The notes below the pieces were generated by a model. It was not told the DNA's origin, ran no database searches, and worked only from the letters and a program-made list of their open reading frames with translations. Source: an uncultured Rhodospirillaceae bacterium (GTDB taxonomy: Bacteria; Pseudomonadota; Alphaproteobacteria; UBA8366). Taken from it: DNA of 55,819 nt. Shown here piece after piece: positions 37,656 to 39,132 of the stretch (positions are counted from its first letter, which is position 1; each line of letters begins with the position of its first letter). The translations under genes were made by a program, and so were the position numbers. The stretch lies in contig CAJWLM010000016.1 in NCBI GenBank assembly GCA_913043025.1, forward strand, positions 1 to 55,819, read 5' to 3'.

Positions 37656-38126
37656 ATGATAAATGGTTTAAAAAATCTCATCTTCGGTAATGATGAAGAA
37701 GAAAGTGTCTCTGCTGGCTCACACAATGATGCAGCGCTCCATCATGCAGCTGCAGGCCTGCTGGTTGAGGCGGCTATGATGGATGGAACATTCGACACTA
37801 CCGAAAGAACTAAAATTTCAGACTTGCTTGTGAAGCACTTTAAGTTGGCGGAGGACGTGGTAGGGGAAATTATTAGCGCAGCGGAAGAGGCAAATGCCGA
37901 ACTTGTTGAACTCTACAATATTACAAAGGTTGTTCGTGATCATTTTGACGAGAGCGAACGAATTCGAATGATAGAAATGCTTTGGGAGGTCATTTACTCT
38001 GATGGAACCCTGGATGATTTCGAAACCAATATGATGCGCCGAGTTGGAGGCCTTTTATATGTATCTGACAGGGAAAATGGTGATGCAAAAAAGAGAGCTG
38101 CACAGCTAGCCAACGGGGAGAGTTGA
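37656..38126 (+). CDS. TerB-family protein
   Basis: A 156-residue helical protein. The TerB domain covers about residues 25-150, with AAAGLLVEAAMMDGTFDTTER and LWEVIYSDGTLDDFETNMMRRV, each carrying a D-G-x-(F/L)-(D/x) acidic loop typical of the family, which binds metal. Family members are linked to tellurite resistance, but in Alphaproteobacteria most are stand-alone with no known role. It is one base upstream of the DUF427 gene and probably co-transcribed with it. Confidence 0.88.
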   Translation: MINGLKNLIFGNDEEESVSAGSHNDAALHHAAAGLLVEAAMMDGTFDTTERTKISDLLVKHFKLAEDVVGEIISAAEEANAELVELYNITKVVRDHFDESERIRMIEMLWEVIYSDGTLDDFETNMMRRVGGLLYVSDRENGDAKKRAAQLANGES

Positions 38127-38127
38127 T

Positions 38128-38520
38128 GTGGCCAAAGGTATAAATCTCGCGGGACCCGCGCCTGGCTTCCTAAAAACGCCGGACTACAAGGTTACTGTAG
38201 AGAGAGAAGGTAGGAGAATTCGTGCATTGGTTATGGGTGAATGCATTGCAGACTCTATGCGTGCGTTCATAATGCGTGAGAGTAATCACACTCCTGTGTA
38301 TTATTTTCCGCCGGCTGATGTCCGTTCTGACCTAATTGAGAAGTCTGACCATGACAGTTTTTGACCATTCAAGGGCGTGGCGTCTTATTACTCGGTCAGG
38401 GTAAATGATAAATTCGAAAAAAATATCATATGGTCCTATGAAGTGCCTTTTGACGAGGGGAAGGAGTATGTGGGTTATATGGCATTCTTCGAGAACCGGT
38501 CCGAACTAAAAATTGGATAA
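38128..38520 (+). CDS. DUF427 protein with an in-frame TGA at a conserved Cys (selenocysteine candidate or nonsense allele)
   Basis: If the TGA at 38362-38364 is read through, the frame is open from GTG 38128 to TAA 38518-38520 and gives 130 residues, the normal size of a DUF427 domain. Before the TGA come VTVEREGRRIRALVMGECIA and PVYYFPPADVRSDLIEKSDH; after it come PFKGVASYY and NIIWSYEVPFDEG. Both halves are classic DUF427. Related proteins have Cys before P-(F/Y)-K-G, and the TGA takes exactly that place (codon 79). TGA differs from TGC or TGT by one base. The unchanged frame after the stop argues for read-through or a very recent mutation. Function of DUF427 is unknown. It lies between terB-like and PNPOx-like genes. 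Confidence 0.75.
38362..38398 (+). promoter_or_regulatory. Possible SECIS-like hairpin starting at the in-frame TGA
   Basis: TGACC (38362-38366) can pair with GGTCA (38394-38398). Within it AAGG (38371-38374) can pair with TCTT (38383-38386, one G-U), and C76-G82 can close a small G-containing apical loop (38377-38381). Bacterial SECIS elements are stem-loops just after the UGA with a G in the apical loop. The internal loops here are large, so this is only suggestive. Confidence 0.25.
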
Positions 38521-38562: not shown

Positions 38563-39132
38563 ATGGTGGATAATTTTCCCAATCCAAGTTTAATTTACGA
38601 CGATATATGGCGCAACTTGGCAAGAGGCTCGAGCGACCCAAAATCTGAATATAGGTGGATGAATTTATCAAGCTCACTTGAGCATGAAGGGTCGTCCGTT
38701 CGTACTGTTGTTCTCAGGGAAACCCTAAAAGATGAACTGATACTCCGCTTCCATTCCGACCGCCGTGCTCAAAAAGTTATTCAAATTGAAAATTGTTCGT
38801 TTGTTATGGCCCACTTTCATGACCGTAAACGTGGAATACAAATCCGTATGACGGGAAATGCGTTGTTTGCCAGCCAATCAGTGCATCACGAGGCATGGTC
38901 GAAGCTATCAAAGCGTCAGCGGGAACTTTACCAATCAAACCAAGTCCCCGGGGATCCCAGAAAAAAGGTTAGAGCTTGCTCAAAAGAACGGGAAGAAACT
39001 GACAAAAATTTTTGTGTAATTGAGATTTCGGTTACCAAGATAGATTGGTTATCGCTCGATCGAGATGCGCATTTAAGAGCTATATTTCAGTGTGACACTA
39101 ACAGTATAAAAGCGGAATGGATAACGCCATAA
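38563..39132 (+). CDS. Pyridoxamine 5'-phosphate oxidase-like FMN-binding protein
   Basis: A 189-residue split-barrel flavoprotein of the PNPOx-like family. Typical pieces are SSVRTVVLRETLKDELILRFHSDRRAQKV and the C-terminal IEISVTKIDWLSLDRDAHLRAIF. True PdxH ends differently (a conserved C-terminal R-L-x-P segment), so this is a relative of unknown substrate. It begins 42 bases after the full-length DUF427 stop and may share its transcript. Confidence 0.85.
   Translation: MVDNFPNPSLIYDDIWRNLARGSSDPKSEYRWMNLSSSLEHEGSSVRTVVLRETLKDELILRFHSDRRAQKVIQIENCSFVMAHFHDRKRGIQIRMTGNALFASQSVHHEAWSKLSKRQRELYQSNQVPGDPRKKVRACSKEREETDKNFCVIEISVTKIDWLSLDRDAHLRAIFQCDTNSIKAEWITP

Follow-up and report, generated by a model that had tools for sequence, protein, structure and literature searches.

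The DUF427 gene on the forward strand of the window, by which we mean the whole stretch of 55,819 nucleotides that was analysed, very probably encodes a selenoprotein, and selenocysteine (Sec) would be inserted in the cell at an in-frame TGA that takes the place of the conserved Cys, as judged from the sequence and its relatives. The first-pass annotation had advanced the same reading, and it is now supported by recurrence of the TGA, by the presence of Sec machinery and by purifying selection 3' of the TGA. On translation, the frame opened by GTG 38128 runs through 78 codons to the TGA at 38362-38364 and continues for 51 sense codons until the TAA at 38518-38520 (Table 1). The PF04248 profile spans the TGA, matching over positions 1-92 of 93 with 93.4 bits and one TGA inside, and with the TGA taken as Sec the score is 99.2 bits over the same positions, the curated cut-off being 22.1. 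In translated Cys-bearing relatives the place of the TGA codon is taken by the Cys in the alignment of C-(P/G)-(F/Y/W)-KG, and the Sec motif here reads F-U-P-F-K-G. Thus, translation, the profile match across the TGA and the Cys alignment confirm the earlier description of a DUF427 frame interrupted by one TGA at the conserved Cys. It is the sole PF04248 match at E 0.001 in the genome (3.08 Mb, 65 contigs, 97.4% complete). GTG 38128 is a plausible start codon because of the GGGGAG at 38115-38120 and the upstream TerB-like frame that ends at 38126.

Table 1. Features in and around the DUF427 gene, in coordinates of the window.
Feature	Position	Strand	Details and basis
TerB-like gene (PF05099) upstream of DUF427	37656..38126	+	stop one base before GTG 38128
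Likely ribosome-binding site GGGGAG	38115..38120	+	7 nt 5' of GTG 38128; sequence, inference
Predicted DUF427 selenoprotein CDS, 130 residues, Sec at 79	38128..38520	+	GTG start, TAA stop; translation and PF04248
TGA predicted to be read as Sec, at the conserved Cys of DUF427	38362..38364	+	translation, relatives, motif scan, alignment
Candidate SECIS apical hairpin UUACUC-GGUCA-GGGUAA	38388..38404	+	loop 29 nt past UGA; 6 pairs
Pyridoxamine-phosphate-oxidase-like gene (PF12766) downstream of DUF427	38563..39132	+	profile match

We considered whether a one-base nonsense mutation, or a base error, affecting the Cys codon in a gene that is normal in all other respects could account for the TGA, an alternative that had been raised from the outset. 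The translated stop-free relatives carry Cys, from which TGC or TGT would reach TGA in a single step, and decayed DUF427 fragments with stops do exist in the same family, namely in G033 (with a TAA) and G034 (with one TGA, two TAG and one TAA). Such an event however fails to explain the recurrence of the TGA. Across 43 genomes of the order, PF04248 yields 53 matches in 34 genomes, of which 46 are stop-free, 5 hold a single TGA and 2 are decayed; the five single-TGA genes comprise all three genomes of the own genus and both of the sister genus g3, with the TGA at the same codon in 5/5. The two decayed fragments (L050 in G034 and L051 in G033) belong to a sister genus of the same family that has tRNASec.

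Beyond the order, 84,980 species genomes were scanned with a DNA motif encoding U-P-(F/Y/W/C)-K-G-x-A-x-Y. This gave 28 matches, 25 of which lie in undamaged DUF427 frames whose Cys codon is TGA and reach other lineages, the two g3 genomes being met again among them (L072 and L085). The motif demands Pro after Sec, and other Sec forms would therefore be missed. The remaining three (L070, L074 and L084) were taken as chance, their frames being short. Adding the own genome (G000), G041 and G042 to the 25 scan genomes gives a set of 28 with the TGA form, labelled as 10 Acidimicrobiia (Actinomycetota), 6 Chloroflexota, 2 Gemmatimonadota, 2 Tectomicrobia and 8 proteobacteria, the latter being 5 alpha, 1 labelled beta, 1 labelled Bordetella and 1 labelled Lambda. 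Alignment of relatives at this codon, a check put forward in the first-pass annotation, hence shows that several species and phyla retain the TGA and that its flanks are conserved. PF04248 has 41 matches in these 28 genomes, 28 with exactly one TGA, 13 stop-free and none with TAA or TAG, although this absence is not an independent control because the genomes were picked for TGA; 19 of the 28 have no PF04248 match besides the TGA form. The TGA-form frames are without other damage. The form is rare, with the motif present in one of 385 genomes of the class sample, the own genome itself, and absent (0 matches) from the viral collection. One bin of the set, titled Bordetella parapertussis (L060, CAMDLH010000147.1), has a Sec-type DUF427 that groups with another, Betaproteobacteria-labelled bin, and its species label looks doubtful.

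The codons after the TGA speak against mutation as well. We calculated dN/dS over the 42 codons 3' of the TGA for 14 pairs, of which 11 had usable dS, two being saturated and one having its sequence cut by a contig end. The ratio is below 1 in 11/11 usable pairs, nine of them at or below 0.13, with G000-G042 at 0.35 and L068-L071 at 0.63, and purifying selection acts on the region 3' of the TGA. In the 10 Acidimicrobiia, codons of invariant residues at +1 to +16 use a single codon in 9/12 cases vs 15/50 elsewhere (Fisher p 0.007, uncorrected, for a region picked by eye), and the A-ending TCA-GTA-GCA within +1 to +16 is present in 10/10. Considering in addition that the TGA form is associated with tRNASec, as detailed below, we judge a mutation or base error to be very improbable, leaving the selenoprotein as the strongly favored reading.

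The genome indeed possesses the means for Sec insertion. The first-pass annotation had proposed a search for selA, selB, selC and selD in the same genome, and all four were found: selA (579 bits, cut-off 268) and selB (442 bits, cut-off 242) are arranged head to tail on contig C4, with tRNASec (71.2 bits; ARAGORN calls the same tRNASec) coming after them, and selD is placed on contig C2 (309 bits, cut-off 125) with a match free of internal stops. Formate dehydrogenase (TIGR01553) above cut-off was not found in the genome. At a distance of about 1.8 kb past tRNASec, beyond two intervening open frames, we recovered a member of the UGSC family (L018:10481-11029), a catalogued selenoprotein family. 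It has one in-frame TGA, reads AIGD-U-GSCTSCC, scores 149.5 bits against NF041046 (cut-off 125) and forms a hairpin of 8 pairs whose loop, UGUAU, lies 18 nt past the TGA. With the in-frame TGA, the NF041046 match and the hairpin, this second gene of the genome thus shows the same signs of predicted Sec coding. The two genes share the genome, the in-frame TGA and a subsequent hairpin with G and U in the apical loop; the families are however unrelated, UGSC having the UGSC motif, and the loop lies 18 nt past the UGA vs 29 nt in the DUF427 gene. The UGSC-family gene is missing from the ORF listing with its minimum of 120 aa. A further TGA-bridged open frame, on the minus strand antisense to selB (L018), looks like chance, and bridged frames alone are for this reason weak evidence.

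The association with tRNASec extends to the other genomes with the TGA form. Defining a strong tRNASec as 60 bits or more, a threshold that falls within an empty range of scores from 55.8 to 64.9 bits, we detected one in 25/28 TGA-form genomes vs 19/142 of the class sample, a base rate that includes the own genome and applies to its own class only. The three without are G041 (84% complete, selA present), G057 (selA in pieces) and G055, where selA was not found. Within the order, 19/43 genomes have a strong tRNASec, distributed as 10/11 in the own family, 9/11 in f3, 0/14 in f2 and 0/7 in f4. Possession of Sec machinery is thus not enough to produce the Sec form, because f3 has tRNASec in 9/11 genomes yet all 15/15 of its PF04248 matches are stop-free, the 8 that were translated being Cys forms.

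These data also bear on the possibility that the UGA is read through as another amino acid, by near-cognate readthrough or a suppressor tRNA. The identity of the inserted residue cannot be read from the frame by itself, but the placement of the TGA at the conserved Cys, the tRNASec in 25/28 TGA-form genomes and the UGSC-family gene with the same signs in the same genome all argue against another amino acid, and we give this alternative only a very small probability, similar to that of a mutation.

Less uniform is the picture for the RNA element that would direct Sec insertion. The SECIS model described in the main text of PMC13188914 calls for a G in the first two loop positions, a loop of 3-9 nt, a stem of 4-16 pairs and a spacing of 16-37 nt, with a limit of -7.5; the hairpin of the own gene fits the loop, stem-length and spacing rules of that model as given there, with a constrained fold of -7.1 kcal/mol that falls just short of the limit. 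The hairpin pairs in 5/5 alpha genomes (30/30 cells). Structure with compensatory changes had been suggested as a sign of Sec insertion, and of this expectation the hairpin 3' of the TGA stands, whereas compensation does not go beyond one pair changed on both sides, a level of covariation that is matched by 128/500 shuffles; slid versions of the hairpin pair at 40-63%. The covariation of the hairpin is accordingly weak. Other lineages have hairpins as well, with GCUACU-GGUC-AGUAGC in the 10 Acidimicrobiia, GGCCAG-GUA-CUGGUC in 4 Chloroflexota and 2 Gemmatimonadota, and GUCGCUC-CGUGU-GGGCGAC in the beta-labelled pair. A best-energy hairpin of 6 or more pairs is present in 25/28 TGA genes vs 2/20 Cys controls, counts that are inflated by relatedness, and the TGA genes L068, L071 and L076 have 4-pair hairpins only. 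Synonymous shuffles are beaten at 0.05 by 8/28 TGA genes vs 1/20 Cys controls, with the own gene at 0.060. A permissive SECIS energy search fails to separate TGA genes (26/28) from Cys controls (17/20), and the folding z-scores of the 3' region, near zero for the own gene, do not separate them either; considering this lack of separation, both were left out as support. Aggregated, the RNA evidence for a SECIS element after the UGA is mixed and of moderate strength, and it is probable, with some reservation, that the hairpin of the own gene is used for Sec insertion.

To place the protein structurally, we turn to its AlphaFold2 model (mean pLDDT 87). A fold search with the model returned 3djm as the best match (Z 20.3, rmsd 1.2, 110 residues), which is also the one clear relative in a PDB sequence search (DUF427, E 3.6e-25; 8hbs_A is marginal at E 0.003). 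The next fold matches are Mis18/Yippee at about 10, YPEL5 and cereblon-like domains at 7-8, RIG-I CTD and MSS4 at about 6 and MsrB at 5.3, where Z values under 8 may mean little. The text of PMC4287342 assigns DUF427 to the beta-tent fold, and the modelled fold agrees with the assignment made there. In 26 aligned Sec forms E51, Y59, P80, K82, G83, A85, Y87, W102, Y104 and P107 are invariant, with P80, K82, G83, A85 and Y87 required by the scan motif, and the invariance of Sec79 given by the choice of rows. That the gene truly ends at the TGA with a functional 78-residue product, the only frame that standard, mechanical ORF reading lists, can practically be dismissed, as the invariant W102, Y104 and P107 and four of the ten strands listed in the model are encoded after the TGA, in codons that are under purifying selection.

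Returning to the selenoprotein, we propose that UGA 38362 would be decoded by SelB and Sec-tRNASec, aided by the hairpin that follows shortly after it within the coding sequence, and that ribosomes would continue to yield a 130-residue beta-tent domain with its one conserved Cys as Sec. Sec79 may then act as the reactive nucleophile of a small one-Cys redox enzyme, re-reduced by an outside thiol. The one-Cys type is suggested because a second conserved Cys column is absent among the 26 aligned Sec forms. We consider a catalytic redox role of Sec79 rather likely, with somewhat less confidence than the use of the hairpin. Placed at the sole conserved Cys, Sec would mark the likely reactive center of DUF427, rendering its function testable as thiol/selenol chemistry.

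For the history of the Sec form, we generated a domain tree of 64 rows, leaving out L040 (long branch) as well as L072 and L085, which come from the genomes already represented by L037 and L036. The Sec label changes 6 times on this tree (bootstrap 6-7), of which starred branches force at least 2, and the grouping of every Sec form into a single clade is not rejected (p-AU 0.105). Several origins of the Sec form thus appear likely from the tree. Tandem DUF427 proteins make up 7 of the 28 (L058, L068, L071, L073, L075, L077 and L083; 4 Chloroflexota, 2 Tectomicrobia and 1 Lambda); in these, Sec occupies the first domain whereas the second retains Cys. The broader proposition, that DUF427 is a one-Cys beta-tent redox family whose catalytic Cys gave way to Sec in several independent events, across at least five bacterial phyla, with tandems that place Sec first and Cys second, seems to us evenly balanced between holding and failing.

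Compared with known systems, the protein is a full-length match above cut-off to DUF427/NTP_transf_9 (PF04248) with the same fold as 3djm from Rhodobacter sphaeroides, from which it differs by having TGA (Sec) in place of the conserved Cys. Some MsrB proteins are selenoproteins, and the DUF427 model shows a weak fold likeness to MsrB (7cto_D; Z 5.3, rmsd 4.1, 91 residues), a Z level that is common; in Pfam, however, the own protein matches PF04248 alone (E 0.001). DUF427 and MsrB are both grouped as beta-tent proteins in the text of PMC4287342, where DUF427 is described as without significant sequence similarity to the other beta-tent families. DUF523 and DUF466 (KCU-star), as presented in the main text of PMC13188914, likewise lack an assigned function and have a predicted Sec form, but they are other domain families, with the Sec motifs SxSUG and CU vs UPFKG in DUF427.

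The earlier claim that no selenoprotein is described in DUF427 holds as far as these sources go. The 2026 review PMC13188914 catalogues, according to its main text, 119 prokaryotic selenoprotein families and subfamilies; DUF427, PF04248, NTP_transf and COG2343 were not found in that main text, nor DUF427 in its Table 1, and DUF427 is not among the nine new families named in the text of the deep-Sep paper PMC12013277. In the part of the open-access PMC literature that was covered, no Sec form of DUF427 is named. Furthermore, NCBIfam models give no match to any of the 26 aligned Sec forms at E 0.01. We rate the predicted Sec form of DUF427 as a new selenoprotein family, one that would extend the published list. 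It also points to a correctable annotation error, with the standard reading stopping at the TGA and NCBIfam models missing the Sec forms.

A tblastn search of the plasmid collection returned 249 records, all under 60% identity. One of the plasmid sequences, Sinorhizobium meliloti pSymB (CP130056.1), has a DUF427 match in two pieces (L127:3001-3364) with no listed gene there; other strains have one listed DUF427 gene at the counterpart, and the locus is possibly frameshifted, with the gene table being incomplete.

Finally, the gene neighborhood was compared among 28 loci, for ORFs within about 4.5 kb. No neighbor common to the own genus and other lineages was found in this comparison, and the recurring neighbors elsewhere are lineage-specific or sporadic. 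The TerB-like and pyridoxamine-phosphate-oxidase-like genes are retained beside DUF427 in 3/3 genomes of the own genus, and only there.
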